Assembly: GCF_032854445.1 (NCBI RefSeq)
Contig: NC_088302.1
Location: 53,600,046-53,664,045 of the forward strand
Reading direction: 5' to 3'
Length of the DNA stretch: 64,000 bases
Source of the DNA: Liolophura sinensis
Lineage: Eukaryota > Mollusca > Polyplacophora > Chitonida > Chitonidae
Shown: positions 16,001 to 62,700 of the stretch, one piece after another
Layout of the letters: every line of letters starts with the position of its first letter
How positions within the stretch are numbered: the stretch's first letter is position 1
The notes under the pieces: model-generated
What the model was told of the DNA's origin: nothing
Databases searched by the model: none
The model's input: only the letters and a program-made list of their open reading frames with translations
Made by a program: the position numbers and the translations under genes

Positions 16001-19000
16001 GTAGAACTGCTCATCAACTCTGATGTCTCCAAGTACTGTGAATTCAAAACTATTACCAGAGTGCTGACCTACCTTAATGGAGAACTGCAGAAGGTACTTG
16101 ATGTTTGATTAATGATATTATTGTAATGTGATCCATCTATAAAATGGCGTGTCTTTCCCTAAGAATCATTTCCCGTTAACTTGTGTTTCTGATTCTAATC
16201 AGTTGTTAGTCATGCTGAATCAGACCATGCGGATAGCCCACAAATGCAAATCCAGCTCTTAAAGGCAGCAGAATTTTTCAGGTTCTAGGTACACCTTTAC
16301 CTGGATGATGTTTATATTATCTGGGTTATAACATAAATCTGCATTAAAAGAAACCAGTAAATTGTAAAGTAACACTTAAGGGAAGTGAAAATTTGTGCAT
16401 GCGTGAGCTGTCCATTGAAGTCATATGAATGGCAGGATTCTTGCCAGTATTATTAAGACATCACAGTCATGTCTATGGAAAACAAGTCTATCATTAATAC
16501 ATGCATGTATTCAGGACAAATCGCTCAGCCCCTCAGTCGGTTTTCAGGTGCCTTGTTCAAGGGCAGATGTCTTCTCCAGCAAGTCTGTGTCTATGATAGA
16601 GAAGAGGATGATGATGAAGTTCATCACGTTCTGTATGGAGTATGAGAAACACCCCGAGCAGTATCAAGGTAGGTAGCAACGCAAGGCCAGCTCTGGCATG
16701 CAGGTCACATATCAAGCTTGTCCCAGGCAATACAGAAGGCACTAGTCTTACATTTTAGGTTATTTTAATGTTTTTGAGGGGAAGATTACATGTACTTACT
16801 GTAACTTAGATGTGGAGAAATTATGGAAATGCCTTGTCAGATGCCTGGACGTCCTGTTCACCACTCATTAGGTTAGGAGAGACAAAACACAAACAAGGAG
16901 TTAACATCTAATTGCATTAGATTGAGTGAGGTAAAGGTCTTGCAAAGTTAATGTATGTTTTGTAGCACAATTTAAAACAAAGGAAGACAGGTCTTCATTT
17001 GGAAGAATTGAATAAAAAAATGGTTAATAAGAACAGGTATATGTGAACTAGCTTCTGTGCACCTATGTTTGTTGAACTTTTTTTTTATTACAGATTTCTT
17101 GGACAAGCCGTTTAGCACATTCCTTGATTCACGGAAATTAAAGCCAAACATAAAGCATTTTATCCTGCATTCTATTGCCATGGCCACAGATACCACCCTA
17201 ACATTACAGGTAATTGATGGGTTTCCTCCAACTCAGCTATTCAGGTACACCTGTTGTACCATCATAGGAACATGTAAGATATACATCAAGTTCAATTTGT
17301 TAGTTGGGTATATTTTGTTAACCAAACTCCATTTTTATCTTGAAAATTCCTCAGTTTTTTGCAGGGATTTTATTTTTCAGATCTCATTATTACTATATTT
17401 CACATTTTTCAAATCACACATTTGGCTTCATTCTAAACCTCGAGTGAAGTTTTGTTTAATTCTTTGATCAGAAAAAACTTAGGAGTTGGGATGAAATGTG
17501 CTTGTAAGACAGTGATGTGCTTCAGAAAGTGCATTTTTACATGCTAAACTTCAGGTGAAATACAGTTCCTTTAAAATACCAAATGTTTTGACTTTACATC
17601 TGAAATGCGCTCCGGTTTGAAGGGATTGGAAAATACGCAGAAGTTCATCTTGTCATTGGGTCGGTATGGCAATACAGCTTTCTTGTGGCCCCTGTATGGA
17701 AGTGGAGAGCTGCCGCAAGCCTTTGCCAGGTAACAGTAAAATATGTGAGTCATTTTAAGAAAAATGTACTCACATCGAGGTTCTTGGAAAAGTGACACTC
17801 TCTACGACTCATACAGTGAATCTTTGTAGATTATTCATAAATTTGTAAAACGGAAATGGCTGTATTTTTTATATTACCTGCAACTTGAATAGAGCTAGTT
17901 ACATTCATTTTGTTAATAATGTTTTGTCTGAGTGCAGTGAGCATTGACAATATACAAAAATACTACAAAACAGTCATAAATATGATACTTTAGTAATTTA
18001 ATGCTTAAAGAGGTTTTTAAGCCGGTCTTGAAAGTGTAAGCGCAATGAAAATTGTTTTAGGATGTGTGCTGTTTTTGGTGGGATTTACTGCTTGAGGATG
18101 ACAGCCAGCTCAGTGATTGTGGATAAAGAGAACAAGTAAGTCATTTCAGTGATTGTGGATAAAGAGGACAAGTAAGTCGTCTCAGTGATTGTGGATGATG
18201 AGAACATGTAAGTTGTCGGTGATTGTGGATGATGAGAACAAGTAAGTCATCTCAGTGATTGTGAATAAAGAGAACAAGTTAGTCATCTCACTGATTATGG
18301 ATAACGAAAACAAGTAAATCATCTCAGTGGTTGTGGATAAAGAGAACAGGTATGCCACCTAAGTGATTGTGGATAAAGAGAACAAGTAAGTCATCTAAGT
18401 GATTGTTGATGATGAGAACAAGTAATTCATCTTTGTTAATGTGGACAAAGAGAACACGTAAGTCATCTCAGTGATTGTGGATAAAGAGAACAAGTGAGCC
18501 GTCTCAATGATTGTGGATAAAGGGAACAAGTGAGTCATCTCAGTGATTGTGATGATTAGAACAAGTAAATCATCTCAATGATTATGGATGATTAGAACAA
18601 GTAAATCATCTCAGTGGTTGTGGATTACAAGAACAGGTTAGTCACCTGTGACAGCCGTTATATATATATAGATGTCAAGCAGAAAAAGAACATGTATTAA
18701 GTAAGATCACTGATTGTACATTGTAAATGGGGATAATAGGTAAATGTCTTAAAGCCTTGAGAGACAAACTACATTCCATGTGTGCAAACAATTCTAAACA
18801 TAAGAAAGGATTTATTTATTTGAATTGATTAGTGTTTTTTATGCCGTACTGGGCTGGGGCCATCCACAGGTTGCTGGCAGACCTCAGGTATGGACGGACA
18901 GACTTGAACTCACACCGACCCCTTTCGTGACAGGCTCCTGGCTGGGTCATTGTTCCGCATTGGCGCGCTAACCACCTTGACAAAAATGGCACATGGCACA

Positions 19001-22000
19001 GCTTAATGGAATCATGGTCGGGTACTAAGACTAGTTTTTTGGGCAACTTATATTGAAGTCGTGCCTTTATCATGTTCTCTTCCTGTTTATTTAGGTACAG
19101 AGGTATAGTGACCACTGAGGGTCATCGGATAGAGAGCAAGTAAGTGTCGTACAGTTTTCATTTTGTTTTACCCTTCAGCTGAGCAGGTGTGTAGATCAGG
19201 AGACTTGATCATACTTCATACGGCCTTTCCTATTATGTAATTGTTTATACAAAAATGTAATGAAAAAAATCATCTTTATTGAAATATTATATAATCACTG
19301 TTTTCTTGTTATTTAGAAAGTGTGGATCAGGGCAGCTGTTGTTAACAACATGTCAATGTAATCTGTAATCTCACGGGTAGAGATAGATGAAATTATGACA
19401 TTTCCTGAAAATATAAAGTTACCTTTACGATGTAATTTTCCCTCATCAGGTGGTTGGTGGCAGAGACAAGTTATCTCCCTAAACAGTATCTGCCATCAGG
19501 TTATGGCTCCAGGTAAGGCAATATTGACAGGAGTTATCTACCTAACCAATATCTGCCCTCGGCTTATGGCTCTAGGTACGGCTGTATTGATAGGAGTTAT
19601 CTACCTAAACAATATCTGCCCTCAGCGTATGGGTCCAGGTACGGCAATATTGTTAGGAGTTATCTACATAAACAATGTCTGCCCTCGGGTTATGGGTCCA
19701 GGTAAGGCAATATTGACAGGAGTTATCTACCTAAACAATATCTGGCCTCAGGTTATGGGTCCAGGTTCGGCAATATTGATAGGAGTTATCTACGTAAACA
19801 GTGTCTGCCTTTGGACTATGGGTCCAGGCAAGGCAATATTGACAGGAGTTATCTACCTAAACAATATCTGCCCTCAGGTTATGGGTCCAGTTAAGGCAAT
19901 ATTGACAGGAGTTATCTACCTAAACAATATCTGGCCTCAGATTATGGGTCCAGGTACGGCAATATTGATAGGAGTTATCTACCCAAACAATATCTGCCCT
20001 CGGGCTATGGGTCCAGGTAAGGCAATATTGACAGGAGTTATCAACCTAAACAATATCTGCTCTCGGGTTATGGGTCCAGGTACGACAATGTTGACAGGAG
20101 TTATCTACCTAAACAATATCTGGCCTTGGTTTATGGGTCCAGGTACGGCAATATTGATAGGAGTTATCTACAACAAACAATATCTGCCCTCGGGCTATGG
20201 GTCCAGGTAAGGCAATATTGACAGGAGTTGTCTACCTAAACAATATCTGGCCTCGGGTTATGGGTCCAGGTGAGGCAATGTTGACAGGAGTTATCTACCT
20301 AAACAATGTCTGCCCTTAGGTTATGGGTCCAGGTAAGGCAATATTGATAGGAGTTATCTACCTAAACAATATCTGCCCTCGGGTTATGGGTCCAGGTACG
20401 GGAATATTGACAGGAGTTATCTGCCTAAACAATATCTGGCCTCAGGTTATGGGTCCAGGTAAGGCAATGTTAACAGGAGTTATCTACCTAAACAATATCT
20501 GGCCTTGGGTTATGGCTCCAGGTACGGCAATATTGATAGGAGTTATCTACCTAAACAATATCTGCCCTCGGGTTATGGGTCCAGGTAAGGCAATATTGAT
20601 AGGAGTTATCTACCTAAACAATATCTGGCCTCAGGTTATGGGTCCAGATAAGGCAATATTGACAGGAGTTATCTACCTAAACAATATCTGCCCTCGGGTT
20701 ATGGGTCCAGGTGAGGCAATGTTGACAAGAGTTATCTACCTATACAATATCTGGCCTTGGGTTATGGGTCCAGGTTAGGCCATGTTGACAGGAGTTATCT
20801 ACCTAAACAATATCTGCCCTTAGGTTATGGGTCCAGGTATGACAAAGTTGACACGACTTATCTGCCTAAACAATATCTGGCCTCAGGTTATGGGTCCAGG
20901 TAAGGCAATGTTGACAGGAGTTATCTACCTATACAATATGTGGCCTTGGGTTATGGGTCCAGGTTAGGCCATGTTGACAGGAGTTATCTACCTAAACAAT
21001 ATCTGCCCTTAGGTTATGGGTCCAGGTATGACAAAGTTGACAGGAGTTATCTGCCTAAACAATATCTGCCCTCGGGTTATGGGTCCAGGTACGACAATGT
21101 TAACAGGAGTTATCTACCTAAACAATATCTGGCCTCAGCTTATGGGTCCAGGTTCGGCAATATTGATAGGAGTTATCTACCCAAACAATATCTGGCCTTG
21201 GGTTATGGGTCCAGGTAAGGCAGTGTTGACAGGAGTTATCTACCTAAACAATGTCTGCCCTTAGGTTATGGGTCCAGGTGAGACAAAGTTGACAGGAGTT
21301 ATCTACCTATATAATATCTGCCCTTAGGATATAGCTCCAGGTAATATATTGACAGAAGTTATCTCCCTGGACAATATCTGCTTTCAGGTTATGGCTCAGG
21401 GTAAGGCAGTATTAATAGGAATCGTCTATCTGAACGATATCTGCCCTTAGGTTAATGCATTATTGACAGGAGCTATCTCCTTGAGCAATATCTGTCATCA
21501 GGGTAAGAAAATATTGACAGTAGTTATCTCCCTGAACATTATCTGCCCGCAGGTTAAAACTCCGGGTAAGGGGACATTGACAGGAACCATCTCCGTGAAC
21601 TATATCTACCCTCAGGTTAAAAACTCCGGGTAAGATGACATTGACATGAGTCGTCTCCCTGAACAATATCTACCCTCAGATTATAACTCCGGGTAAGGGG
21701 ACATTGACAGGGCCATCTCCCTGAACAATATCTACCCTCAGGTTATGGCTCCATGGGCAGATATCCACAAAACCATTTAATTTGAGACAGGGTTATAGAG
21801 CTTAATTTTGGGCCCAATAGATGTAAAAGTTTTACCACCACTCATTACTATAATTATGGCTCAGGGTAAGGCACCAATGACAGGAGCCATCTCCCTGAAC
21901 AATATCTACCCTCAGGTTATGGCTCCATGGGCAGATTCCACAAAACCATTTAATTTGAGACAGGGTTATAGAGCTTAATTTTGGGCCCAATAGATGTAAA

Positions 22001-25000
22001 AGTTTTACCACCTGATTACTACTTATGGCTCAGGGTAAGGCACCAATGACAGGAGTCATCTCCCTGAACAATATCTACCCTCAGGTTATGGCTCCATGGG
22101 CAGATTCCACAAAACCATTTAATTTGAGACAGGGTTATAGAGTTTAATTTTGGGCCCAATAGATGTAAAAGTTTTTACCACCTGATTACTAAGTATGGCT
22201 CAGGGTAAGGCACCAATGACAGGAGTCATCTCCCTGAACAATATCTACCCTCAGGTTATGGCTCCATGGGCAGATTCCACAAAACCATTTAATTTGAGAC
22301 AGGGTTATAGAGCTTAATTTTGGGCCCCAATAGATGTAAAAGTTTTACCACCTGATTACTACTTATGGCTCAGGGTAAGGCACCAATGACAGGAGTCATC
22401 TCCCTGAACAATATCTATCCTCAGGTTATGGCTCCATGGGCAGATTCCACAAAACCATTTAATTTGAGACAGGGTTATAGAGCTTAATTTTGGGGCCCAA
22501 TAGATGTAAAAGTTTTACCACCTCATAACTAATTATTGCGGCGGGTAAGGCACCATTGACATGAGTCATTTCCCTGAACAATATCTACCCTCAGGTTAAA
22601 AACTCTGGGTAAGATGACATTGACATGAGTCATTTCCCTGAACAATATCTACCCCTCAGGTTAAAAACTCTGGGTAAGATGACATTGACAGGAGTTATCT
22701 CCCTGAACAATATCTACCCTTAGGTAATGGCTCCATGGGCAGATTCCACAAAACCATTTAATTTGAGACAGGGTTATAGAGCTTAATTTTGGGCCCAATA
22801 GATGTAAAAGTTTTACCACCTCATTACTAATTATGGCTCAGGGTAAGGCACCATTGACAGGAGTTATCTCCCTGAACAATATTTACTACAGTCTGTCATT
22901 TTAAAGGTGCGCAATTGCACTCGCAATGCCCCCTCAAAGGATCTTTTCAGGAGGCTAGTCTTTTACTACAAGTAAACAACTCACAGCATGATTACATTTT
23001 TTTTATTTCACTTCTTCAATCATCATGATAATCTTGCAGGGGATCGGCCAGCACCGTCTGATTGCATGCGCTGAAGCGACTAGTTCCCCCTGTCGTCTGG
23101 GAAGACAACCAAACCAGCAAACATAATGACTCATGATGTAGGCATTGGTCATTTAATTTTGTCAAATTGCCTGTTCGTTGATCAATACGTGCATCTCAAC
23201 TTAGGTCAGAAGCGGCTGAATTCAGGTCGGCAGCTAGTGAGTAATGACACCTCACTCTGAGCAAAGCTCGGATGTGTCAGCATGATTCCAGTCATCCTCA
23301 GAATGGAAAACCTTGTGCTATATTCTGTGTGATGATAACTACTGCCGCTGTCAGTGGTCGTGACCCCTGCAGAGCACATGGTCGAAAATATCATTATGAA
23401 GTGAACCTTACAGGTTTTTTCTTTCTCCATAATTTGGGTATATTTGTTTCCAAAGCAGATGTACGTTTTTGAGCGTTGTGAGCTTGACATGAATAGCTGT
23501 TTAACTCATGAAATGTGTGCATTTGAATTCTGAATAAAGTTTCAGACATGTCATGCAACTATCAACAACAACGGTAGAGACTATAGTATTTAGTTATTAG
23601 TGACCTAATGCGGCATTTCGAGGAAGTTTTCTTCTTATTTAATGTGACTCTTACCCCCTGGAATCATACTGTACAAGTGGATATGGTAAATGTACTTGCT
23701 CAGCATTTATTATTATTATTTTAAATTACAGCTGCTGCCTATTTTACAGTCTTTTACTTATGCACAGTCCTGGGTTGTACTGTGTGTAGATGGAGCCCCA
23801 AACATGGATATGGGATGGGTGTTGTACAATGCCAATATGTGCACAAATGTTATGGCTCTGATATATTTTGAAACAAACTACGTTTTGTTGTTTGATTTAT
23901 TTATTTATTTATTTATTTATTTATTTGATTGGTGTTTTACTCAAAAATATTTCACTATTACGACAGCCAGCATTATGGTGGGAGGAAACCGGGCACACCC
24001 CGGGGGAAACCCACAACCATCTGCAGGTTGTTGACAGACTTTCCCACGTATGGCCGGAGAGGAAGGCAGCATCAGCTGGACTTGAACACACAGCAACTGC
24101 ATTTGTAGGTGTAAATTGCACTTCTTGGCAAATTGAGGGGTGTGTTTTGGTGCACTCCTTCAGTTTTGAAAAATGATGGACTGTTACCCCAGAGGTTATG
24201 GCACTAGGTAAGGCAATGCTGACGGGAGTTATCTGCCTGAACAATATCTGCCCTCAGGTTATGCCTTGGGGTAAGGCAGTATTGACAGGGGTGAGTGAGT
24301 GCTTGTGGTTTAACGTCGTACTCAACAGTTTTTCAGTCATATGACGACGAAGGAATCCCTAGGGTGTATGTACTGTGCCTCCTTGTCGCAGGACGGATTT
24401 CAACCGCTCTTACATAGTGCTGCTTCACTGAGACCACCTACCGAAGGCTAGTAAGCCACCCTGCCCGAGCCGTTATACTGAACGGGTCAACCAGTCAGTT
24501 CATTATCCCCTTCATGCTGAACGCCAAGTGAGGAAAAAAACTTCCTCTTTTAAAGCCTTAGGTGTGACTCGACCCAGGATTGATCCTGGATCTGTCGCTT
24601 CCAAAGCAGACGCTCTACCAACTGTGCTATCCGAGCTGGTCAATATTGACAGGTCTTCGTGAACAAGATCTGCCCTCAAATTGTGGCTCAGGGTGAGGTA
24701 ATATTTCCCTAGACAGTATCTGCCCTCAGATTGTTGCCCAGGGTAAGGCAATATTGCATAAAGGCTGGGCTGTTTCTCCAAGTCTCCATTGAGAAAGTTT
24801 TTAAGTTACACATTGACCAATCATTGTCATGGTAACTTGACCAGTACTGTGAGAAATATCTCTATTTTAATATGTTGGAATGTGAAACAAAATACCTGTT
24901 GGAAGTTGTTGGAAGGTTAAGGGGAGTGGCTTACTGGAAGATTTGAAATATGCTGTGGCATTGTGTCCATGCTGTGGCATTGTGTCCATGCTGTGTCAGT

Positions 25001-28000: not shown

Positions 28001-30558
28001 ACACTGATGTGATCTGACATCTGAACATAGGCCTACACACTGCTCTTATCACATAGGTTATGTGGTCAGGTTTATGAAGTGGTGTGACCTGACTAATAGA
28101 ACCGAAATACAAATGTAAGTACCTATGCGATCAGGTTTATGAGGTGATATGAGGTGACTAACAGAACTGACATACCTATGTGGTCAGGTTTATGGGGAGA
28201 TGTGATGTGACTAATGGAACTGAAATACCTATGCGATCAGATTTATGAGGCGATGTGACGTGACTAATAGAACTGATGTAACTGTAGTCAGGTTTGTTTG
28301 CAGCCCATTAGTAAGGCTTCTTATAAAAGAAAACTGGTTCATTTCATGACATTATTTCAGGCTTTAACCTAAAATTGTAATCCAAATTAGATTCTTAAGT
28401 GTGCATCAGGTTGATAAAAAAATTGATTGTTGATGTTTTTTATGTTGTAGTACAAGTTTGAGAATCAAGCTTCAAATATTTTGTTTTGTAAAATTTAAAG
28501 TTTTGGACTTTAGCCCAAAAAGGACTTTGTGAAGCAGGCTTTGGGGGTGACACTCCACTGTGTGGATGCGGTTCAGAGTAATTGATGATGTTGGGAAAAG
28601 CAGTGTTCAGTAATGCTTCCAGAAAACATTTAGTACTAATGCTAATCAAGTTTTGAGCAGGGATCAAATGCCAAAGAAATAAATGAAGCAAAGCCTTCTA
28701 GTAAATTTATTCATTTACTTGATTAGTCTTTGCCATTCTTAAGAACATTTCACTCATGTGATGGTGGCAAATGTTATGATGAGAGGAAGCCGGGCTCTTC
28801 CTGGTGTGAACCCACGATCATCTGTAGGTTGCTGGCATACCTTCGCAAGTATGGCCGTAGAGAAGCTAGCATGATCTGGGCATAGACTAACAGTGATCAC
28901 ATTGGTGAGAGGTTTCTGATTGTGCTTCACATTGGTGATTGTGCTTCACTAGCACACTAACCATCTGGACAAGGATGCCCTTAATACTAGTATGCGCTTT
29001 GTGTTCAGAAATAAGCGTTTAGTTGTGTCATACCTGAGATTTTGACTGGAGTCAAGAATGGCTGTGGGGAATTACTCCACTGTCTATGGTTGTTGTAGTT
29101 CAGGGGATATAATGTAACTTGCATTGATACTGTAAGTGATACAAACAGGGGAATGGGCTGTGGTCTCGTGATTTGATATATGTGATACACAGATACTTAT
29201 CTTTTTGTTTGCTCTTCAAAACTGGATGTGCAAAAGGTATGAAAAACATCAGTTTGATGAGGTCAATTTACCCTGCAAATTGATTGAGAGGCTGGATGAA
29301 TTTACTTCCAATATCAAAATAGCACTACATTTTCAGGGATAGATACAATAGTTTGTGCATAAATTGAAACTGATACAACATTTATGTCCTGTTGTGCTTG
29401 TGTTGCAGATTCAGGGCCGAGTATCTTGTGGTATATGTACTTCAGACAGAGCAACACCCAGGGAGTGGAGACACAAACCCCAGACCATGTAGTGACCATA
29501 CCTGGTCCAGGGTCAGAACTGGACATGGACCATGTGGTCAAACAGGTAAACTGTTATACAGAGCAACACCCAGGGAGTGGAGACACAAACCCCAGACCAT
29601 GTAGTGACCATACCTAGTCCAGGGTCAGAACTGGACATGGACCATGTGGTCAAACAGGTAAACTGTTATACAGAGTAGCACCCAGGGAGTGGAGACACAA
29701 ACCCCAGATCATGTAGTGACCATACCTGGTCCAGGGTCAGAACTGGACATGGACCATGTGGTCAGACAGGTAAACTATTATACAGAGTAGCACCCAGGGA
29801 GTGGAGACACAAACCCCAGACCATGTAGTGACCATACCTGGTCCAGGGTCAGAACTGGACATGGATCAATTAGTCAAACAGGTAAACTGATATACAGAGT
29901 AGCACCCACCTAGACACAAACCCCCCACCCCCAGTGGTCAGGGTATATGCAAGTACTGTGTGTGTCTGTACGTCGGCCTGATTTTGGGAACAAGTTAAAC
30001 CATTCAAGGTTACAATTACACAGCACCATGAGGTCAGAAGGAGAACCGTATTGCCATGGTTAATGTCAGCCATCTAGGATTTCTTGGCAGTCACATCTTT
30101 CTTTTAATGAAAAATACATCATAAGAGTGATAATTTGTTTCATGATAACATGCATGGAACCTCAGCTACTGAGCTTGTTTATCTAACTGTAACTAATATG
30201 CATGTATAACTGATATTTCCATATTTTATTGTTCTAGGCCAAGGACATTTTTGCCAGGTTGTGCCCAGATGAGGAATTTCTTCCCAAGGCTCCGAACCCT
30301 GAGGATATTATATTTGATGATGGCAAGTCGGCAGAACCAGGTGAAGGGTTCCAAGATAAACCAAGTGGTGCAGATGGGGATTCCAAAGGGATTTCCCAAC
30401 CAGAGACAACAGAGGTGACACCAGGGGACACAGGGATTTTCCAAACAAAAGTGACACCAGAGGCCACAGGGATTTGCCAAACAGAAGAGTCTGAGGGGAA
30501 TTCCCAACCAGACTCTTTGGAGAAATCACAAGTAGGGAAGACCAAAGAATCAGAGTAA
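10026..30558 (+). CDS. CHM: Rab escort protein (REP/CHM family, GDI superfamily), complete 17-exon gene
   Basis: Rab escort protein presents newly made Rab GTPases to geranylgeranyl transferase II and delivers them to membranes. Coding exons: 10026-10077, 12324-12390, 13148-13220, 13765-13892, 14611-15163, 15977-16093, 16548-16668, 17094-17209, 17623-17729, 18061-18135, 19095-19139, 19450-19512, 25918-25978, 27228-27324, 27808-27912, 29409-29545, 30238-30558. Phases agree throughout, giving 746 codons including stop (human CHM is about 653 residues). Signatures: N-terminal [19 protein letters not shown], then [66 protein letters not shown] and C-terminal [12 protein letters not shown]. Exon 5 encodes an acidic low-complexity linker, and the tail after residue 660 is Thr/Glu/Pro/Gly rich. 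The start is ATG in context aacATGG. Weak points are the acceptors of exon 4 (taag/acagg) and exon 9 (tttgaag/ggatt), chosen for phase and homology. Three exons have tandemly amplified 3' ends. Confidence 0.95.
10078..12323 (+). other. REP intron 1
   Basis: The intron runs from gtatgg to a gtttcag acceptor. It has no recognisable exon, SINE or tandem array. It may hold regulatory sequence near the 5' end, but nothing specific can be supported. Confidence 0.6.
14026..14110. repeat. 30 bp tandem repeat, 3 copies, REP intron 4
   Basis: Three near-perfect copies of catgtaagtgggaagcggca plus the tgtacatgta palindrome occur. Each unit contains gtaagt, but it does not resemble the upstream exon end (cttgtctg/gtgagt), so it is not one of the exon-derived arrays. 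Confidence 0.9.
15388..15752 (-). mobile_element. tRNA-derived SINE (family B) with (CACT)n tail, reverse orientation, flanked by a target-site duplication
   Basis: Read on the minus strand it starts with a tRNA-like head (ggatagcacagttggtagag, then a B box around ggatcaatcc). It continues through a body found also at 24293-24650 and ends in cgacgttaaaccccaagcac followed by (CACT)n. Perfect 12 bp direct repeats, tagaaaagaaag, flank it at 15376-15387 and 15753-15764, as expected for LINE-type target-primed insertion. It lies in REP intron 5. Confidence 0.9.
18111..18645 (+). repeat. 36 bp tandem array derived from the 3' end and splice donor of REP exon 10
   Basis: About 15 copies of a unit reading gtgattgtggataaagagaa then caagtaagtcatctca. 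The first copy is the real end of exon 10 (encoding SVIVDKEN, donor aacaa/gtaagt at 18135); the rest extend into intron 10. Most copies keep the gtaag donor, and substitutions accumulate (gatgatgagaac, ggttgtgg). In the exon frame each unit reads into TAA at the donor, so only the first donor is productive. Confidence 0.93.
18813..18985 (-). mobile_element. tRNA-derived SINE (family A), internally deleted, REP intron 10
   Basis: The segment starts with ttatttatttgaattgatta and gccgtactgggc, jumps to catccacaggttgctggcag, then continues through gacttgaactcacaccgacc and ggcgcgctaacca. This is the family A consensus in reverse with about 60 bp missing from the middle. Confidence 0.8.
19450..21360 (+). 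repeat. 63 bp tandem array derived from REP exon 12 plus its splice donor
   Basis: Exon 12 (19450-19512) encodes [20 protein letters not shown] and ends ggctccag/gtaagg. From 19513 on, about 30 copies follow of a 63 bp unit containing the exon's last 40 or so bases (agttatctacctaaacaata, tctgccctcgggttatgg) and the first part of the intron (aggtaaggcaatattgacag). The donor base varies: many copies read gtaagg, others gtacgg or gttcgg. Spurious long open frames come from the 21-codon period. The conserved exon frame usually hits TAA at the donor. Confidence 0.95.
21361..22885 (+). repeat. Diverged and composite continuation of the exon-12-derived array (about 170 bp higher-order units)
   Basis: The 63 bp theme continues (ccctgaacaatatctaccct, caggttatggctcc, ggctcagggtaaggc) with about six composite units of about 170 bp. 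Each adds about 105 bp of new sequence (cagattccacaaaaccattt, gagacagggttatagagctt, gggcccaatagatgtaaaag). Spacings of the phrase ggctccatgggcag are 169-170 bp over 21920-22430. Confidence 0.9.
22886..23875. other. REP intron 12, unique-looking stretch
   Basis: Nothing recognisable is seen apart from short AT-rich runs. The open frames here are short and lack family signatures. Confidence 0.5.
23876..24115 (-). mobile_element. tRNA-derived SINE (family A), reverse orientation, REP intron 12
   Basis: A (TTTA)n run is followed by gattggtgttttactcaaaa, atttcactattacgacagcc, attatggtgggaggaaaccg, ggccggagaggaaggcagca and gctggacttgaacacacagc. The tRNA-like head at the right end fades into unrelated sequence. 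Confidence 0.85.
24184..24755 (+). repeat. Outlying relics of the exon-12-derived array, split by a SINE
   Basis: Segments 24184-24292 and 24650-24755 contain array phrases (gttatggcactaggtaaggc, gttatctgcctgaacaatat, cagggtaaggcaatatt). A family B SINE sits between them. They mark the old limit of the array, or a piece separated by later insertions. Confidence 0.75.
24293..24650 (-). mobile_element. tRNA-derived SINE (family B) inserted in the exon-12-derived repeat
   Basis: It is closely similar to 15388-15752: gtgagtgagtgcttgtggtt, aacgtcgtactcaacag, tcagtcatatgacgacgaag, and tRNA-like accaactgtgctatccgag at the right end. It is flanked by tattgacagg on both sides, a likely target-site duplication, although the array itself also supplies that phrase. 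Confidence 0.88.
24945..25852. repeat. 18 bp minisatellite, about 50 copies, REP intron 12
   Basis: The unit is close to tgtccatgctgtggcatt with common variants (gttgtggcag, ctgtgtcagtg). The period is a multiple of three and stop-free in several frames, so both strands show long repetitive open frames (Cys/Val-rich on plus, Thr/Gln/His-rich on minus). The next real REP exon starts only 65 bp downstream at 25918. Confidence 0.95.
26468..26605 (+). mobile_element. Fragment of tRNA-derived SINE (family A), forward orientation, REP intron 13
   Basis: The order of blocks matches family A: cgtggaaaggtcagccatca, acctgcagatgatcattgg, atctgcccagttttctctca, gcataatgctggcagtc and gtgaaatattctttagtac. 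The head and the AAAT tail are missing. Confidence 0.75.
28040..28290 (+). repeat. About 55 bp tandem repeat, 4-5 copies, REP intron 15
   Basis: Copies carry gatcaggtttatgaggtgat, gtgactaatagaactga and ataccta. The phrase gatcaggttt also occurs just inside the intron after the donor at 27912 (gtatcgtgatcaggtttttg), so a seed near the splice donor is possible, but no coding sequence is included. Confidence 0.75.
28703..28985 (-). mobile_element. Diverged tRNA-derived SINE (family A), reverse orientation, REP intron 15
   Basis: Diverged but collinear blocks are seen: tttattcatttacttgatta, gaacatttcactcatgtgat, gaggaagccgggctcttcc, gttgctggcataccttcgc, atggccgtagagaagctagc, cattggtgagaggtttctg and agcacactaaccatctgg. 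Confidence 0.8.
29447..29915 (+). repeat. 112 bp tandem array derived from the 3' end and splice donor of REP exon 16
   Basis: Exon 16 (29409-29545) ends with sequence encoding MDHVVKQ and donor aaacag/gtaaac. Its last 99 bases plus the first 13 of the intron recur at spacings of exactly 112 bp (cagag start points at 29447, 29559, 29671, 29783, 29895). The last copy is incomplete. All four complete copies keep acaggtaaact. Because 112 is not a multiple of three, readthrough changes frame. Confidence 0.95.
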
Positions 30559-30822: not shown

Positions 30823-30829
30823 AGTCATT

Positions 30830-35841: not shown

Positions 35842-35859
35842 ATATTAATAACGGCTACT

Positions 35860-44285: not shown

Positions 44286-44324
44286 TGCTGAAAACACCCT
44301 CTTGCTTGTGTAGTGGTATCACAT

Positions 44325-44790
44325 GTTATGTCTGTATATTGCTAAATTTTTCATGAGGTGCCCTATACAGTGCTTCCACATGTTATGTCTATGCATTGCC
44401 AAATGTTCCAAGAGATGGTCTGTACAGTTTGGGAACAGACAAAAGTGGCGGACTGTTGAAGGTGTACTTTGTCACATAGTGCTTCCACATGTTATGTCTG
44501 TGCATTGCCCAATGTTTCATGAGTCTGTACACTTTAAGCACAGACAAATACTGCAAGCTGTTGAATGCATCCATTGTTGCATTGTGCTACCTCATGTTAT
44601 GTCTGTACATTGCCAAATGTTACATGAGGTGGTCTGTACAGTTTAGGTACAGACAAAAGCTGCAGACTGCTGAAGGTGTACTTTGTCATGTCTGTACATT
44701 GCCAAATGTTCCATGAGGTGGCCTGTACAGTTTGGGTACAGACAAAAGCTGCAGACTGTTGAAGGCATACTTTCTCACACCTGTGTTCTT
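44325..44790 (-). repeat. Tandem partial copies of the terminal coding exon of INPP4
   Basis: Downstream of the real terminal exon, four further copies of its 3' coding part lie at spacings of about 89-120 bp (44596-44685, 44500-44590, 44390-44480, 44325-44380). They keep codons for [20 protein letters not shown] in pieces. The first extra copy still reads to an in-frame stop after GNVQT. They sit in what should be the 3' UTR and are interpreted as exon-end duplications, not alternative exons. Confidence 0.88.
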
Positions 44791-47700
44791 GAAGGTGTTG
44801 TCTCTTCTCACACCCTCACTAAAAATAAAATCAAAATCATCAAGTTAAGACATAGAATAAATTACACAGCCTTGCTATCTACATGTACATGTAGTCATGC
44901 TGAAGCCGTATGAATGCCTACATGTACTTTTATACCTACCCACCATCCTACCCACCATCCTACCCACCATCTTCATGTCAAGACTTACTGAAGAATCTAC
45001 AATTATTTTGTCCAAACAGACACATTTCATGTTTCTATCAATTCCTGAGGTTAGGAAAAGCACAGAATTCCATTAAGTCAAAAATTTAAATATTGCATTT
45101 TATCTAGTGCCTCTATGATTTACAACTGACGCGAGCTAATACACAGCACTTTGTGAAAGTCCACACTATACGCTAGACGTACCTTCTGAAGCAGTCGAGA
45201 GCCTGAGTGAAGACATGTGAGGCGAGGTTGTGCTCCTGCTGTAGAATCTGTGTCTGCTCTAGAGTCACCCCCATAGATGTCCGGTCCTTACCACTCTTAC
45301 AACACGTAAACCTCAGGCCATTCAGCTTACGGCTCATCTGTGGGTACACAAAACACAACTTCAGTGACATGCTGCTCGTCTTAATACTTATAACAAATGC
45401 ACATGGTTATTTCATGAGAGATGTTTCTCTTAAAACTTCAAAGAATTAAGTCCCTCCAAACCAAATCATTTTCTCCCCTCAGTTGTAAATATTTGCCCCC
45501 ACTCTCTGCAATTGCAAATATTTGTCCCCACCCTCTCTACAGTTCATGTGATTTGTTCTACATAGCCATTATTAAAAGTGCTTTTGGTAAAGTCAGGTAT
45601 GCAAGTGGTGCCAGTTTTTATTGTACTCCGATATACAAGTGGGGCCAGCTTTTGGTGTACTCAGGTAAACAAGTGGGGCCAGCTTTTGGTGTACTCAGGT
45701 ATACAAGTAGGGTCAGCTTTTGGTGTACTCAGGTATGCAAGTGGGACCAGCTTTTGGCGTACTGAGGTATACAAGTGGGGGCAGCTTTTGGTGTTCTCAG
45801 GTATACAAGTGGGGCCAGCTTTTGGTGTACTCAGGTATACAAGTGGGGCCAGCTTTTGGTGTACTGAGGTATACAAGTGGGGCCAGCTTTTGGTGTACTC
45901 GGGTATACAAGTGGGGCCAGCTTTTGGTGTACTCGGGTATACAAGTGGGGCCAGCTTTTGGTGTACTGACGTATACAAGTAGGGCCAGCTTTTGGTGTAC
46001 TGAGGTATACAAGTGGGGGCAGCTTTTGGTGTTCTCAGGTATACAAGTTGGGCCAGCTTTTGGTGTACTGAGATATACAAGTGGGGCCAGCTTTTGGCGT
46101 ACTCACGTATACAAGTGGGGCCAGCTTTTGATGTACTGACGTATACAAGTGGGGCCAGCTTTTGGTGTATTCACATATACAAGTGGGGCCAGCTTTTGGT
46201 GTACTGACGTATACAAGTAGGGCCAGCTTGTGGTGTACTCAGGTATACAAGTGGGGCTAGCTTTTGGTGTTCTCAGGTATACAAGTGGGATCAGCTTTTG
46301 GCGTACTCACGTATACAAGTGGGGCCAGCTTTTGGTATTCTCAGGTATATAAGTGGGGCCAGCTTTTGGTGTACTCAGGTCAACAAATGGGGCCAGCTTT
46401 TGGTGTACTCAGGTAAACAAGTGGGGCCAGCTTTTGGTGTACTCAGGTCAACAAGTGGGGCCAGCTTTTGGTGTTCTGAGATATACAAGTGGGGCCAGCT
46501 TTTGGTGTACTCACATATTCAAATGGGGCCAGCTTTTGGTATTCTCAGGTATATAAGTGGGGCCAGCTTTTGGTGTACTCAGGTCAACAAGTGGGGCCAG
46601 TTTTTGGTGTTCTCAGGTATACAAGTGGGGCCAGCTTTTGGCGTACTCACGTATACAAGTGGGGCCAGCTTTTGGCGTACTCACATATTCAAATGGGGCC
46701 AGCTTTTGGTATTCTCAGGTATATAAGTGGGGCCAGCTTTTGGTGTACTCAGGTCAACAAGTGGGGCCAGTTTTTGGTGTTCTCAGGTATACAAGTGGGG
46801 GCAGCTTTTGGTGTTCTCAGGTATACAAGTGGGGCCAGCTTTTGGTGTACTGAGGTATACAAGTGGGGCCAGCTTTTGGTGTACTGAGGTATACAAGTGG
46901 GGCCAGCTTTTGGTGTACTCGGGTATACAAGTGGGGCCAGCTTTTGGTGTACTCGGGTATACAAGTGGGGCCAGCTTTTGGTGTACTGACGTATACAAGT
47001 AGGGCCAGCTTTTGGTGTACTGAGGTATACAAGTGGGGGCAGCTTTTGGTGTTCTCAGGTATACAAGTTGGGCCAGCTTTTGGTGTACTGAGATATACAA
47101 GTGGGGCCAGCTTTTGGCGTACTCACGTATACAAGTGGGGCCAGCTTTTGATGTACTGACGTATACAAGTGGGGCCAGCTTTTGGTGTATTCACATATAC
47201 AAGTGGGGCCAGCTTTTGGTGTACTGAGGTATACAAGTGGGGCCAGCTTTTGGTGTACTCGGGTATACAAGTGGGGCCAGCTTTTGGTGTACTCGGGTAT
47301 ACAAGTGGGGCCAGCTTTTGGTGTACTGACGTATACAAGTAGGGCCAGCTTTTGGTGTACTGAGGTATACAAGTGGGGGCAGCTTTTGGTGTTCTCAGGT
47401 ATACAAGTTGGGCCAGCTTTTGGTGTACTGAGATATACAAGTGGGGCCAGCTTTTGGCGTACTCACGTATACAAGTGGGGCCAGCTTTTGATGTACTGAC
47501 GTATACAAGTGGGGCCAGCTTTTGGTGTATTCACATATACAAGTGGGGCCAGCTTTTGGTGTACTGACGTATACAAGTAGGGCCAGCTTGTGGTGTACTC
47601 AGGTATACAAGTGGGGCTAGCTTTTGGTGTTCTCAGGTATACAAGTGGGATCAGCTTTTGGCGTACTCACGTATACAAGTGGGGCCAGCTTTTGGTATTC

Positions 47701-50700: not shown

Positions 50701-53700
50701 ACCCCCAAAGAATAATGCCTACCTCTCTGCCAGTGTTGCCTGTTCATTGATACCCACATTAAAGAAGACAGGAATGACCTTGATCAGGTGACCTCTCTGT
50801 AGTTCTGGAGGAAGGAGCTGTGCCATGCCAGCAGACAATGGCACTTTGATGATCAGCCCAGACCTACGGAACAAAAACATAGCCTTTGCCACACAACAGA
50901 AACAATGACATTTTTGATAATCAACCTGGGCTAACAAATTAAGTTTACAATAAACTGTTTCACAACAGAAGCAGGAAAGACTAGCTTGAATACAAGAACA
51001 ATGGAATATGATGTCTTTTATTCAAGTAATGTCAGCTGTAACGTCAGGTGGGCAGAGGAAAATACACCATACTGAGACTTTCATACTTACATACATGGAT
51101 ATGTATTATTAATATATTTCATCTGCATAGAAACATCTTTACTGATGGAGACAAAAACTAAGAATGCAGTCTTTTAAATGTTGCTCTAACAAATACATGT
51201 CCACATAGTTGTAGCAAATGGGTTTGTGGTTGGTCAAGCAAGGCATCGAAACGACATGGCTGAGATATTGCTGATGTGGCGTTAAGCCATAATCATTCAT
51301 TTAAGCAAGGCAATCAAATATTTAATGCATTTACAAAGAAAGACATGCAAAGCTGAATAGACCGTAACAAAAACAACTTAAGTTAGAATTAAGCGAGGAA
51401 TGTTAAACATGCATATGCAAATTTGAAAATGAGAAAGTAAAATCATAAATAAACTACAAAGCGAGTTAGAAATTATAATATGAAACAAAAATCTATATTA
51501 CAACCATGAACCTACATTATTATTCCAAATATATGTATACAACATGTATGCATTATTGGAGATCTATCCATTATCCATGCAATATGGTACTTTTACCAGC
51601 ATCAACACTTCCTTCAAATAAACATACAAGAGGAGGATGTAGGGCAGAAGACAAAGTGGTTACAAAAGAAAAAGACAAGGAGATGGGGTTGGTCCAACCT
51701 GCTGACATCTGGGTAGTATCCCTGTCTTGTGGAGCTGGTGGGGCAGAGAGACAGACATGTTATCTACTCTACACTCATACTTTATAGCATTTTCATGTAC
51801 AGGTTAGGTTTATATTACTTTATTGATCAACTTACAGGCATTTATTTATTTATTTATTTATTTAGTAGGTGTTTTACATTGTACTGAAGAATATCTCAAT
51901 TATACAACAGCAACTAGCATTATGGTACGAGGAAACCCACGAACATCTTCCAGGGAGGTAGGCAGAACGAGTTAAACTTCAACTCACACTGACCGTATTG
52001 GTGAGAGGTTCTCGAGTCTACCTACTCTGCCACAGAGGCCCCCTCGATCTACATGTACATCCATCATACATGTATATACTGGCCAAGATAGGCTTTACAT
52101 TGTATGTCAAATCAAATGACTGGCTGCTGAATATAAAAACACAAGTACAGCAATATTAGGCATACTTTAAAACACAGTTCAACAGACGTTTACAGCAAAC
52201 AAAGTCAATACAACCTAAAAGTGCATTTCTAGGGGTAAATAAATGTCACAAAATATTATTTTAGGTACAGGAACTTTTAAGCCTTTCTAAAATCCTTAAA
52301 ACTCTCAGAATCAGGAAATCTGAGAAAGTTAGCTATGTACGAAATTTTACGTCATTTACATTTATTTGATTTGTGTTTTCTCACTAGGGTTATTTTTGGC
52401 AGCACAGCGTAGTATAAACCCGGATCAATTTGTCAAAAGCAGAATAGACGTCCCATATATATCAAATACATGTTTCAGTGTTCCTCAATGTTTGGCCAAG
52501 TCAAAAGGTTTTTATTTAGTTGAATTGATTGGTCATACCACAGTTGTCAGGGTTATGGATAAAGGAATTTATGGGCGTGTCCAGAGAAACTAAACCACCA
52601 CCTTTAGCCATGTACATGCACCTGATAATCTTCCTGACAAAGCTTTAGCTTAACAAACCAACAGCTAACTCGAGCCTACTTACTGGCCTGGGGTGTAGTG
52701 GCTGCCGCTTAACAAACCAACAGCTGACTCCAGCCTACACCTACTGGCCTGGGGTGTAGTGGCTGCAGCTTAACAAACCAACAGCTGACTCCAGCCTACA
52801 CCTACTGGCATGGGGTGTAATGGCTGCCGCTTAACAAACCAACAGCTGACTCCAACCTACACTTACTGACCTGGGGTGTAGTGGCTGCCGCTTAACAAAC
52901 CGCCAACTAACTCTATCCTACACTTACTGGCCTGGGGTGTAGTGGCTGCTGCTTAACAAACCAACAGCTGACTCCAGCCTACACTTACTGGCCTGGGGTG
53001 TAGTGGCTGCCGCTTAACAAACCGCCAACTAACTCCAGCCTACACTTACTGGCCTGGGGTGTAGTGGCTGCCGCTCAACAAACCGCCAACTGACTCCAGC
53101 CTACACTTACTGGCCTGGGGTGTAGTGGCTGCCGCCTAACAAACCGCCAACTGACTCCAGCCTACACTTACTGGCCTGGGGTGTAGTGGCTGCCGCCTAA
53201 CAAACCGCCAACTGACTCCAGCCTACACTTACTGGCCTGGGGTGTGGCTGCTTCCTGCTTAACAAACCATCAGCTGACTCCAGCCTACACTTACTGGCCT
53301 GGGGTGTAGTGGCTGCCGCCTAACAAACCGCCAACTGACTCCAGCCTACACTTACTGGCCTGGGGTGTGGCTGCATCCTGCTTAACAAACCATCAGCTGA
53401 CTCCAGCCTACACTTACTGGCCTGGGGTGTAGTGGCTGCCGCCTAACAAACCGCCAACTGACTCCAGCCTACACTTACTGGCCTGGGGTGTGGCTGCTTC
53501 CTGCTTAACAAACCATCAGCCGACTCCAACCTACACTTACTGGCCTGGGGTGTAGTGGCTGCCGCTGTATCTTCTTCAGCAGAGGAAAGTACACACTATT
53601 TACTATTATAACTTCTGTGGAATGTAAGAAGACCAGTGTTCAAAGACTTTTTTTGTATAATGCTTGTGTTGCACATCTTTTGGCACTAACAGCAGCTATA

Positions 53701-56700
53701 AGCAACAGCAATACATTAAGTGCACAGAACTAACCACTACATGTGGCTAGAGTGTGTGTGCTGTGATCATGTCCAGTCTGCAGTGATTGTTAAAATAGTC
53801 CTACCAAGCACTGCAAGCAGCACCACCAGCAAAGTGGTAGTTAGATATGGAACGTGTTGATAAGTATTTAGCAGAGCACATATGATTCACACCAAATGTC
53901 CATCAGTTAGACATTGCAAGCAGCTACACTATGTTCACCAAAGTCAGTAAACCTACCCACATGTACAGCATCAAAATTAGAAAAGTGTCATTCCCATATT
54001 TTAATTTCTAAGGTTATGTGCCTACAACAATATTTTATAGAGGTACTTTTTGTACAGAATCATGTTCCATGACCAGACATAGGTGTGCCTGACTGAAAGC
54101 ATAAAAAAATGTATTTCTGAAGCTGTATGTCCAAATAAGAGATACATGTACAAATGTACTTCTGTCTGGCTACATATACGTTTTTGAACAACTGTGGATT
54201 GTTTCTCCAATGGACTCTTGTTAGCTGTGTATTTAGGCATTTATTTGTTTTCTAACTCAGCTGACAGCCATGTTTGTGAGTACTTAAACAGAGTTGCTGG
54301 AAATATCTCACATTTTAAGTAACATGACTATTCTAGTCACTAGACAATTCTTCTGGTCTATGGCTTCAGACGTGTACTAAAAGGTACTACTATAAGTAGG
54401 CCTGGGTGTCTAATGTCTCACAAAACAGGACTATTCTAGTCACTAGACAATTCTTCTGGTCTATGGCTTCAGACATGTACTAAAAGGTACTACTATACTA
54501 TAAGTAGGCCTGGGTGTCTAATGTCTCACAAAACAGGACTATTCTAGTCACTAGACAATTCTTCTGGTCTATGGCTTCAGACATGTACTAAAAGGTACTA
54601 CTATACTATAAGTAGGCCTGGGTGTCTAATGTCTCACAAAACAGGACTATTCTAGTCACTAGACAATTCTTCTGGTCTATGGCTTCAGACATGTACTAAA
54701 AGGTACTACTATACTATAAGTAGGCCTGGGTGTCTAATGTCTCACAAAACAGGACTATTCTAGTCACTAGACAATTCTTCTGGTCTATGGCTTCAGACAT
54801 GTACTAAAAGGTACTACTATACTATAAGTAGGCCTGGGTGTCTAATGTCTCACAAAACAGGACTATTCTAGTCACTAGACAATTCTTCTGGTCTATGGCT
54901 TCAGACATGTACTAAAAGGTACTACTATACTATAAGTAGGCCTGGGTGTCTAATGTCTCACAAAACAGGACTATTCTAGTCACTAGACAATTCTTCTGGT
55001 CTATGGCTTCAGACGTGTACTAAAAGGTACTACTATACTATAAGTAGGCCTGGGTGTCTAATGTCTCACAAAACAGGACTATTCTAGTCACTAGACAATT
55101 CTTCTGGTCTATGGCTTCAGACATGTACTAAAAGGTACTACTATACTATAAGTAGGCCTGGGTGTCTAATGTCTCACAAAACAGGACTATTCTAGTCACT
55201 AGACAATTCTTCTGGTCTATGGCTTCAGACGTGTACTAAAAGGTACTACTATACTATAAGTAGGCCTGGGTGTCTTATGTGTCACAAAACAAGACTATTC
55301 TAGTCACTAGACAATTCTTCTGGTCTATGGCTTCAGACATGTACTAAAAGGTACTACTATACTATAAGTAGGCCTGGGTGTCTAATGTCTCACAAAACAG
55401 GACTATTCTAGTCACTAGACAATTCTTCTGGTCTATGGCTTCAGACATGTACTAAAAGGTACTACTATACTATAAGTAGGCCTGGGTGTCTTATGTGTCA
55501 CAAAACAGGACTATTCTAGTCACTAGACAATTCTTCTTGTCTATGGCTTCAGACATGTACTAAAAGGTACTACTATACTATAAGTAGGCCTGGGTGCCTA
55601 ATGTCTCACAAAACAGGACTATTCTAGTCACTAGACAATCTTTCTGGTCTATGGCTTCAGACATGTACTAAAAGGTACTACTATAAGTAGGCCTGGGTGT
55701 CTAATGTCTCACAAAACAGGACTATTCTAGTCACTAGACAATTCTTCTGGTCTATGGCTTCAGATATGTACTAAAAGGTACTACTATACTATAAGTAGGC
55801 CTGGGTGTCTAATGTCTCACAAAACAGGACTATTCTAGTCACTAGACAATTCTTCTGGTCTATTATGGCTTCAGACATGTACTAAAAGGTACTACTATAC
55901 TATAAGTAGGCCTGGGTGTCCAATGTCTCACAAAACAGGACTATTCCAGTCACTAGACAATTCTTCTGGTCTATGGCTTCAGACATGTACTAAAAGGTAC
56001 TACTATACTATAAGTAGGCCTGGGTGTCTAATGTCTCACAAAACAGGACTATTCTAGTCACTAGACAATTCTTCTGGTCTATGGCTTCAGACATGTACTA
56101 AAAGATACTACTATACTATAAGTAGGCCTGGGTGTCTAATGTCTCACAAAACAGGACTATTCTAGTCACTAGACAATTCTTCTGGTCTATGGCTTCAGAC
56201 ATGTACTAAAAGGTACTACTATACTATAAGTAGGCCTGGGTGTCTTATGTCTCACAAAACAGGACTATTCTAGTCACCAGACAATTCTTCTGGTCTATGG
56301 CTTCAGACATGTACTAAAAGGTACTACTATACTATAAGTAGGCCTGGGTGTCTTATGTGTCACAAAACAGGACTATTCTAGTCACTAGACAATTCTTCTG
56401 GTCTATGGCTTCAGACATGTACTAAAAGGTACTACTATACTATAAGTAGGCCTGGGTGTCTTATGTCTCACAAAACAGGACTATTATTATAAGAATTTAT
56501 ATTCAGTTCAAAAGATGAGTGAGACTATGATTGTAAGATAATGTAGTTTGTATAATGGACAGGGGCCACTTTCAAAAAACTTTGTAAGTCATATTTCTTG
56601 TAACTTTTTTTGTAACATTCGTTGTCCAGCTTATAGTGTCATAAGACGTCATTTACAAGAAAAGTTTTTTGAAAGAGACAGCAGATATAAGCATAAGGGT

Positions 56701-59700: not shown

Positions 59701-62700
59701 ATGCCAAGGACGATGGCAGTCCATACTAGCTACTCCTACATGTACATGTAAGGCTTTCTCTTTATGCATTTAATACACGCAAAGCATCAGGCAAAGATGC
59801 AAGAAGTGACCAGGGTGGATCTCATCAGACTTGAGAGGACAGATTCATGGAAATCTTCCTGGAAGAGGAGTCCTGCACATCCATGTTATTCCAGCTATAA
59901 ATACACATGTCCATGTACTGACACTTACCCATGGCTCAATGGTTGGACTTTTCACAAACTCATTCCCTGACCACCTCCACGTTTTCTCTGGGGACAGCTC
60001 AGGCTGACCGATACTCATGTTAGCAGGGACAGACTGACGGCCAGATGTAGTGTTGACTGGAGGTGTGTCAGGTTTGGCCTCCTGGTACAGCTTATCCGTC
60101 TCATCCAGGAGGGGATCGTTACACACCTCTATCAACTGTCTCACCTGGTTAAAGCAAGAGAAACTGACTGAATGACTAATTCACAAGCAAGACTACACAT
60201 CCACATGTTCAGCAAGAGGTGTCAGAGGACATTAAATTAAAGATCTGATAGCTGTTATTAGTCAACTGAAAACTAACCATCTCCTTACAAACCTGTACCT
60301 TACCTTGTCAGTGAGAACAGCCATGGGCCTCTTCAGTTCATATCCTGACCCTTGCATGGCTGTGTGACACAACACATCACAGCTCCTCATAAACCTGTCC
60401 CTTACCTTATCAGTGAAAACAACCATGGACCTCTTCAGTTCAGCACCTGACTCCTGCATGGCTGTGTGACACAACACATCACAGCTCCTCACAAACCTGT
60501 CCCTTACCTTGTCAATAAAAACAGCCATGGACCTCTTCAGTTCAGCTCCTGACCCCTGCATGGCTGTGTGACACAACATATCACAGCTCCTCACAAACCT
60601 GTACCTTACCTTGTCAATAAAAACAGCCATGGACCTCTTCAGTTCAGCTCCTGACCCCTGCATGGCTGTGTGACACAACACATTACAGCTCCTCACAAAC
60701 CTGTCCCTTACCTTGTCAATAAAAACAGCTATGGACCTCTTCAGTTCAGCTTCTGACCCCTGCATGGCAGTGTGACACAACACATCACAGCTCCTCACAA
60801 ACCTGTCCCTTACCTTGTCAGTGAGAACAGCCATGGACCTCTTCAGTTCAGCTCCTGACCCCTGCATGGCTGTGTGACACAACACATTACAGCTCCTCAC
60901 AAATCTGTTCCTTACCTTGTCAGTGAGAACAGCCATGGACCTCTTCAGTTCAGCTCCTGACCCCTGCATGGCTGTGTGACACAACACATTACAGCTCCTC
61001 ACAAATCTGTTCCTTACCTTGTCAGTGAGAACAGCCATGGACCTCTTCAGTTCAGCTCCTGACCCCTGCATGGCTGTGTGACACAATACATCACAGCGCT
61101 TTACACACTCTTCCTTTAGGCTTCGAATATCAGACACAATCTCAGCCCCACGGCTCAACTTGTTACTTTGGCCTGAAGATCTGTCCACAGAGTAGCTCTC
61201 TCGTTGCTGTTGCAGTAACCGTTTCATCCCACCATTTCGGTACTTATGGGCATAAGCTGTGAAAGCTCCGGATGTAATAGTATCAAAACACCCACCTACA
61301 ATTACACATCTTACATTAGCTACACACGGACAAGTGCCAGCATAAGTGTCATTACCATATATTTTTGTTTTCAAAATAATCCTGATTAGAATTCTGTGCA
61401 TATACTATCATTCATTTCTGGATTATCCTTATGTTGTGGGAGAGCACTGCGGCAGAGAATCAACTGGACTAAATAACATCAGATTCATTCATTAGGATTG
61501 TGACAGACAAACTGTTCCGGATTTTATGTTGATATCAAAGCTCAAATCCCAAACTCTATCATTTGACCCTTGCTTAAGGTCATACTCAAGAATTATTTAT
61601 TATGTTGGCTGCCAGTTTTACAGGAGTCCCAGAGCAAACCATCGACTCTGGCAGGTCACTGATGAACTCTTCCATCTGTCATGTTGGTGGAAATCAAACT
61701 CCAGTGAACTTCATGTAAGACCACCACAGGCAGCATCATTGACCACTTGTTGTCAGAAAAATAATAAGGCCCAGACAATAAGGGAAGAAGAGGGATCTAA
61801 AACATTAGTGTATTATAACAAGGCTCACCTGTAGCTCGCCTAATTGAGCAGTGTGTAAAACTAGAGACATGTAATGTTCCGGTTATGTGATACATTCAAA
61901 TACTGACCTCAAACCCAAAAAACAAGTAGAATGACTGACACTGTCATACACAAACATTATACTGCAATTACGCAGTGCTAAGAGCTTTGGCATCAAATCA
62001 ACAAGGATAAACCAAAATTATTATACTGTCACAATTACAGCGTATCACTGTTTATTGTATGCGTTGCATACGGGTCGCAGAGCAATGACTTCATGTTATA
62101 GCACAGTAAATCATTGAGGTCGGTGGTAAAAGACACTGTAGGAAGTTAGAGCACAACTTAACCACAGAGATTTTTAATATGCTAATCGTGAACTACATGT
62201 GGCAATCGATGTACTATGGGGGGCAACTGCAGCCCTGTGAATAGCTGAGCAAAATGTTGAGCTATGAGGTAAAAGACCTTTGATATGCAAATCACAACTG
62301 ATGACTGGCTATCTGTGTACTGTGGGTAGCCACTGCAACCCTATGATTGGCCAAAAACTTTAACCAAACTGGACACCAAAACCAACAGCATCTGACCCCC
62401 TCTCACTATACCTCTCCTTACTTTGCAAGGCGAGCTAAACTTAACATAGATCTACAGGTACATGCATATACAGTACATACTCTTCCCTGTAGCCTCATTC
62501 TGAACCCATAGGCGGTGTAAGTGGAGATTGGTTGGTACAAACTCAAGATCCTTGTCAGCCTTTTTGGCACTGGGCTTAAAACTTGGGCCTAGATAGAAAA
62601 AATAGTACATTATATAACAAACATATCTGATACACTATAGTATTTGGTTCAAAAAATCTAATATACACCATCTTATATTCATTCTTTGAGATATTTTTTT

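Follow-up and report, generated by a model that had tools for sequence, protein, structure and literature searches.

Tandem repeat arrays made of copied exon ends were found in a 64,000-nucleotide stretch of the genome of the chiton Liolophura sinensis (contig NC_088302.1, positions 53,600,046 to 53,664,045 of the forward strand), hereafter the window, by whose own numbering positions are given. They lie in a plus-strand gene for a Rab escort protein (REP) and in a minus-strand gene which, from its CKSGKDRT motif and its C-terminus, we take to encode an INPP4-type phosphatase (INPP4). At four exons of these two genes, and at 18 of 289 exons sampled elsewhere without regard to repeats (13 donor arrays, including one at the kinesin locus L060, and 5 acceptor arrays), an array contains an exon edge together with its splice site. 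These arrays are very probably mirages, as tandem repeats across exon-intron boundaries are called in passages of two amphioxus studies (PMC3087553, PMC3902484), that is, local minisatellites that began as a tandem duplication catching an exon edge, or the final part of the last coding exon, and that would be nearly neutral, with the exon-proximal splice site in use.

Arrays at exon ends in the REP and INPP4 genes

The joined exon translations of the plus-strand gene matched Rab Escort Protein 1 in a PDB search (1ltx_R, E 4e-66), and the minus-strand gene gave just a weak match to PREX2. Tandem Repeats Finder (TRF) returned 47 rows for the window, which amount to 26 arrays once overlaps are removed and occupy 25% of its bases. 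Among them are all six arrays that a first-pass annotation, made from the letters alone, had described as copies of exon ends, with units of 36, 63, 112, 102 and 61 bp and, for the sixth, of 105/89 bp (Table 1). According to frame-consistent exon models, the authentic donors follow 18135, 19512 and 29545 in REP and 61018 in INPP4, and at all four of these donors the array starts 27 to 100 bp within the exon and continues into the intron. The annotation had claimed a real exon end with its donor for five arrays, which is borne out at these four positions; the fifth, the 61-bp array, was credited with an exon ending at 53541 that we reject, because exons 57021-56777 and 50863-50723 are in frame when spliced directly to each other, presuming that no additional exon lies between 56777 and 50863. 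From AG acceptors 20 to 400 nt upstream of 53541 the frame-compatible exons were merely pieces of 24, 30 and 33 nt within the array, and among the other candidate exons ending there one of 55 nt breaks the frame and the rest meet a stop. In the sixth array, as had been proposed, the repeated sequence comes from the INPP4 terminal coding exon; it is the end of that exon, with the stop codon included and the acceptor left out.

The four donor-side arrays and the terminal-exon array extend away from their exon, into the intron or the untranslated region (UTR), in agreement with the earlier description. Likewise, the view that they are separate local events is upheld by their differing unit sizes and by genome searches with two of the six units, in which every match lay at the unit's own locus (2 matches for the 112-bp unit and 21 for the 63-bp unit; the search skips very common words and is not proof of rarity). 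Both their unit lengths and their copy numbers lie within the range seen in other arrays of the genome. The 63-bp unit recurs in degenerate form across about 5 kb of a single REP intron, indicating that such arrays lengthen introns. Reading through the authentic REP donors leads to a stop immediately at 18135 and 19512 and within one more unit at 29545, so that use of inner donors at these exons would truncate the protein. The statement that no array was seen at an acceptor holds for the modelled exons of the window: comparison of the TRF list with the exon models placed no acceptor inside an array among about 25 modelled REP and INPP4 exons, a set without some exons, e.g. those of REP between 15163 and 16548 and of INPP4 between 50723 and 45337. 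Placing the founder unit of each array at random gave an expectation of 0.49 spanned donors for the 25 window exons, compared with four found (P=0.0016), in a window picked for its donor arrays and with a model built after the counts were known.

Exon-edge arrays in a repeat-blind exon sample

The sample was drawn regardless of repeats through four Pfam families, CCT, myosin head, dynein AAA_6 and kinesin, and comprises 241 exons in 34 gene regions (CCT 9, myosin 10, dynein 15; 274,934 bp) and 48 kinesin exons, the latter taken with 125-bp flanks, so that long units may be missed on both sides. As exons we took 67 of 76 CCT matches (three were array copies and six at other loci were left out), 50 of 84 myosin matches in regions selected for compactness, which may under-represent long arrays, 86 of 93 dynein matches (seven left out), and 48 of the best 59 of 132 kinesin matches by E-value, the remaining 11 being skipped for at least two stops or an internal intron. 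The 241 include 38 exons added by paralogue comparison, after six of 44 such pieces had been dropped as array copies. A small script assigned splice sites by consensus in the surroundings of the family matches, and every flagged case was then checked by eye. In CCT_C8_534 exon 1 both automatic splice-site calls proved wrong, and this exon was retained solely as a borderline acceptor case. The exon at L060 falls outside the rule for using donor ends, and a candidate donor array at kinesin locus L070 was rejected, the true exon stopping before the array.

The 34 gene regions contain 98 non-redundant arrays, and TRF rows with a period of at least 10 make up 15.3% of their sequence. Arrays include 12 of the 279 called donors (13 with L060), 11 of them in the CCT, myosin and dynein genes, with two kinesin cases (L060 and L075), and 5 of the 288 called acceptors, four in the CCT, myosin and dynein genes (one borderline) and one in kinesin. 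The absence from acceptors asserted by the first-pass annotation does not, therefore, extend to the genome at large. With at least 10 bp of exon inside the array the counts are 11 donors (12 with L060) and three acceptors. One acceptor array shares its dynein gene with a donor array, and in the myosin C2 array about 43 copies of a complete 3' splice site stand immediately upstream of the authentic acceptor. The donor arrays start 6 to 115 bp before the donor with no common breakpoint, and inspection of the array sequences by eye revealed no shared breakpoint motif of the kind expected from splice-motif microhomology.

Most copies have kept their splice signals. Of the 128 extra donor copies that could be aligned, from 13 arrays of the window and the sample, 117 have GT (103 of 114 without the unsupported array at 53541), and AG is present in 45 of 49 aligned extra acceptor copies from three arrays (40 of 43 in the myosin C2 array). 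Mismatch to the consensus was 0.065 in the donor window and 0.058 in the rest of the unit (0.070 vs 0.059 without the 53541 array), and the mean percentile of the donor window over the 13 arrays was 0.38; donor copies look neither protected nor purged. This divergence test lacked MYO_C8_105, MYO_C3_107, both kinesin donor arrays and two of the five acceptor arrays, and the CCT_C8_534 array at 53407400, with zero aligned extra copies, entered it as an empty entry and was excluded.

Table 1. Exons and arrays of the window, followed by the exon-edge arrays of the sample
Feature	Position	Strand	Unit and copies	Remarks
REP exon, authentic donor after 18135	18061..18135	+		REP-1 PDB match; splices in frame to 19095
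REP array	18109..18644	+	36 bp x 15	begins 27 bp inside exon; donor included; GT in 14/14 aligned extra copies
REP exon, authentic donor after 19512	19450..19512	+		REP-1 PDB match; frame-consistent exon model
REP array	19469..21753	+	63 bp x 36.7	begins 44 bp inside exon; GT in 31/34 aligned extra copies
Compound array (21680-22598) and scattered degenerate 63-bp-unit copies, same REP intron	21680..24756	+	170 bp (compound array)	last match ends C8:53624801
REP exon, authentic donor after 29545	29409..29545	+		REP-1 PDB match; frame-consistent exon model
REP array	29446..29908	+	112 bp x 4.1	begins 100 bp inside exon; GT in 3/3 aligned extra copies
INPP4 exon, authentic donor after 61018	61018..61295	-		in frame to exon at 60144
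INPP4 array	60281..61097	-	102 bp x 8	begins 80 bp inside exon; GT in 7/7 aligned extra copies
INPP4 intronic array with donor-like site CCA/GTAAGT	52648..53566	-	61 bp	TRF; claimed exon ending 53541 unsupported
INPP4 terminal coding exon incl. stop	44686..44818	-		exon model
Repeats of INPP4 terminal coding exon end and stop codon, into 3' UTR	44369..44777	-	~105 bp (89 bp)	acceptor outside array
Donor array, CCT C1			109 bp x 5
Donor array, CCT C8			107 bp x 2
Donor array, CCT C8			66 bp x 7
Donor array, myosin C1			31 bp x 6
Donor array, myosin C8			140 bp x 2
Donor array, myosin C3			121 bp x 9
Donor array, myosin C3			124 bp x 4.5
Donor array, myosin C3	at 10.78 Mb		104 bp x 2
Donor array, dynein C12			83 bp x 5.8
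Donor array, dynein C6			31 bp x 20
Donor array, dynein C9			44 bp x 6	just 6 bp of exon
Donor array, kinesin L075			34 bp x 3.6
Donor array, kinesin L060			68 bp x 2.5	outside counting rule
Acceptor array, myosin C2 (L018)	C2:5377145-5378505		32 bp x 43	motif TTGTCTGCTGTGTTTGTAG/GTTTGAGCG; 9 bp of exon
Acceptor array, myosin C1	at 67.51 Mb		95 bp x 3
Acceptor array, dynein C12			92 bp x 4.6
Acceptor array, kinesin L050			64 bp x 2.4
Acceptor array, CCT C8 exon 1			41 bp x 13	borderline, ends at or barely beyond acceptor

The window also holds other repeats. Long arrays at 45580-47755 (34 bp x 64) and 54321-56485 (108 bp x 20) lie in INPP4 introns with no contact with modelled exons, and a 36-bp repeat occurs within the last REP coding exon (30408-30487). 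A dispersed repeat of about 175 bp, resembling a short interspersed nuclear element, is present on both strands (23931-24110, 32761-32932, 3633-3807, 26440-26585 and 28774-28879); the rest share 77 to 83% identity with the copy at 23931, and two fragments of lesser length occur, at 31956 and 51879. Between the two genes, a plus-strand stretch broken into several pieces (34531-39467) resembles a retrotransposon without long terminal repeats, with CCHC-type, reverse transcriptase and RNase H-like open frames recognized by eye in the open-frame list.

Tolerance, seeding and chance as possible explanations at splice donors

We propose that these arrays arose when a tandem duplication happened to include the border between exon and intron, or the tail of the terminal coding exon, and was later amplified, the copies reaching outward from the exon into intron or UTR sequence. 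The exon-proximal, authentic site would normally be used, in which case the gene would remain functional and the copies nearly neutral. Duplicated donors trail the authentic donor and would be second to reach the spliceosome, whereas duplicated acceptors precede the authentic acceptor and, as scanning in splicing generally proceeds from the branch point, can be met first; donor arrays would for this reason be easier to tolerate. Perhaps donor arrays look commoner through this order in which the duplicated sites are met, and a higher duplication rate at donors is a further possibility.

Several observations weigh against this account, and they are taken up here together with the rival explanations on which they bear. 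The first-pass annotation supposed a donor-side excess, to be counted outside the window against random placement, and donor arrays did outnumber acceptor arrays there; however, at 12:5 (p=0.14) or, strictly, 11:3 (p=0.06; two-sided binomial) the difference is not significant by the counting rule, while the inclusion of L060 gives 13:5 (p=0.096) and 12:3 (p=0.035). Such ratios could arise by chance alone as sampling noise in a genome as rich in minisatellites as the sampled regions and the window indicate. If whole arrays were dropped at random, 22 donors and as many acceptors would lie under them, compared with an automatic count of 10 and 4 (one miscalled donor included), which means that arrays avoid exon edges overall, as predicted by selection on coding sequence and as would also fit a chance origin of the inequality. 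Random placement of the founder unit leads to an expectation, per side, of 3.33 (strict) to 4.22 (lenient) spanned junctions for the 241 exons, under a model that was built after the counts were known and presumes even array density. Acceptors equal this expectation (2 strict, 4 lenient), whereas donors exceed it 2.6- to 3-fold (10 strict, P=0.002; 11 lenient, P=0.004). This result and the donor count of the window, although the window was chosen for it, speak against chance, which we consider unlikely as the whole explanation. The same excess is awkward for tolerance, which alone predicts donors at or below the founder expectation. It favors mutational seeding, in which some feature of 5' splice sites, be it of sequence, chromatin or transcription (e.g. 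R-loops, or microhomology between the end of the exon and the start of the intron), would raise the duplication rate. Similarly, nine array edges fall in the first 60 intron bases compared with four in the last 60, a distribution that leans towards seeding; deeper in the intron (60-240 bp) there are 12 on the donor side and 17 on the acceptor side. Since the numbers are small, the founder expectation has the limits just given and the array starts share no breakpoint, as far as inspection by eye goes, seeding can be put forward as a tentative alternative. Overall the counts suggest, if weakly, a genuine donor excess, and their small size does not allow seeding to be told from tolerance.

A different challenge comes from the repeated sites themselves, most of which have an intact GT or AG and might serve regulated alternative splicing or the production of repeat-bearing proteins. 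With a unit length divisible by 3, the 102-bp INPP4 array keeps an open frame through all copies (seven full extra), so that they could be coding, and the protein would gain 34-residue repeats if the inner donors were used. The variants among these copies are 6 synonymous and 14 nonsynonymous, with 22% synonymous expected, and on these 20 variants no coding constraint is visible. On the acceptor side, the splice window has diverged less than other parts of the unit (0.010 vs 0.032, three arrays), a poor fit to strict neutrality there, although nearly all of this difference stems from the single myosin C2 array (0.007 vs 0.038). Donor windows, in contrast, diverge about as much as the remainder of their units, and the stops beyond the three REP donors likewise argue against function, which makes this explanation improbable. 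The recurrence at many exons might also be attributed to a dispersed mobile or satellite element inserting at splice donors, but unit length and sequence differ among loci and the two units tested match their own locus only, which leaves such an element highly implausible.

Local tandem duplication followed by near-neutral amplification remains our preferred interpretation of the individual arrays. That exon-edge tandem duplication constitutes a standing genome-wide process, reaching about one exon in 16, with donors favored two- to threefold by a real bias (mutational seeding, or the order in which duplicated sites are met during splicing), having reached high frequency independently of amphioxus, lengthening introns and supplying spare splice sites, is a broader proposal which we advance with considerable reserve. 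If the sampled frequency holds, the genome would offer very many natural experiments, with 2 to 40 copies of a donor or an acceptor next to the authentic site, and RNA reads from such arrays would allow a test of how the spliceosome chooses among near-identical sites and of the relative tolerance of donors and acceptors.

Comparison with known systems

The first-pass annotation knew of no named element of this kind, but the amphioxus mirages are one, and the consulted passages describe them on both sides of exons (PMC3087553, PMC3902484). There, the globin BflGb6 carries an acceptor-side mirage with 6 and 3 units in its two haplotypes and BflGb9 a donor-side mirage; the study states that either exon boundary can be duplicated and suggests intron gain (PMC3087553). 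The PGBD5 study reports mirages of 60 and 108 bp, at 5' as well as 3' splice sites, and refers to those of Adh and troponin C (PMC3902484). Regular splicing is undisturbed according to the authors of both papers (PMC3087553, PMC3902484). An amphioxus origin of the present sequence was considered and rejected: the genome carries eight molluscan haemocyanin domains in a row, and it gave no match to the GFP family, a weak sign when taken alone, as the control genomes lacked matches too. The chiton arrays, known from one haploid assembly, are like the mirages of amphioxus (Adh3, troponin C, BflGb6, BflGb9, PGBD5) in that their units span the exon-intron boundary, most copies retain the AG/GT signals, and both donors and acceptors are affected; they are unlike them in their host, a mollusc, in having a sampled frequency (18/289 exons), and in the one array at a stop codon and 3' UTR.

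A further parallel is intron gain by tandem genomic duplication, in which tandemly duplicated exon segments bearing AGGT give rise to extra splice sites (PMC3443670). Duplication yields extra splice sites in the chiton as well, but there it affects the edge of an exon already present, and the outcome seen is a longer intron. With ordinary intronic minisatellites the arrays have similar unit lengths and copy numbers in common, whereas their founder unit differs in holding exon sequence and a splice site. Literature searches, judged by their listings, showed no mirage from a mollusc or a chiton. As far as this search extends, the chiton arrays are thus a known kind, mirages, in a new phylum and with a first rough frequency, which, if that frequency holds, suggests that mirages are not a lancelet oddity.

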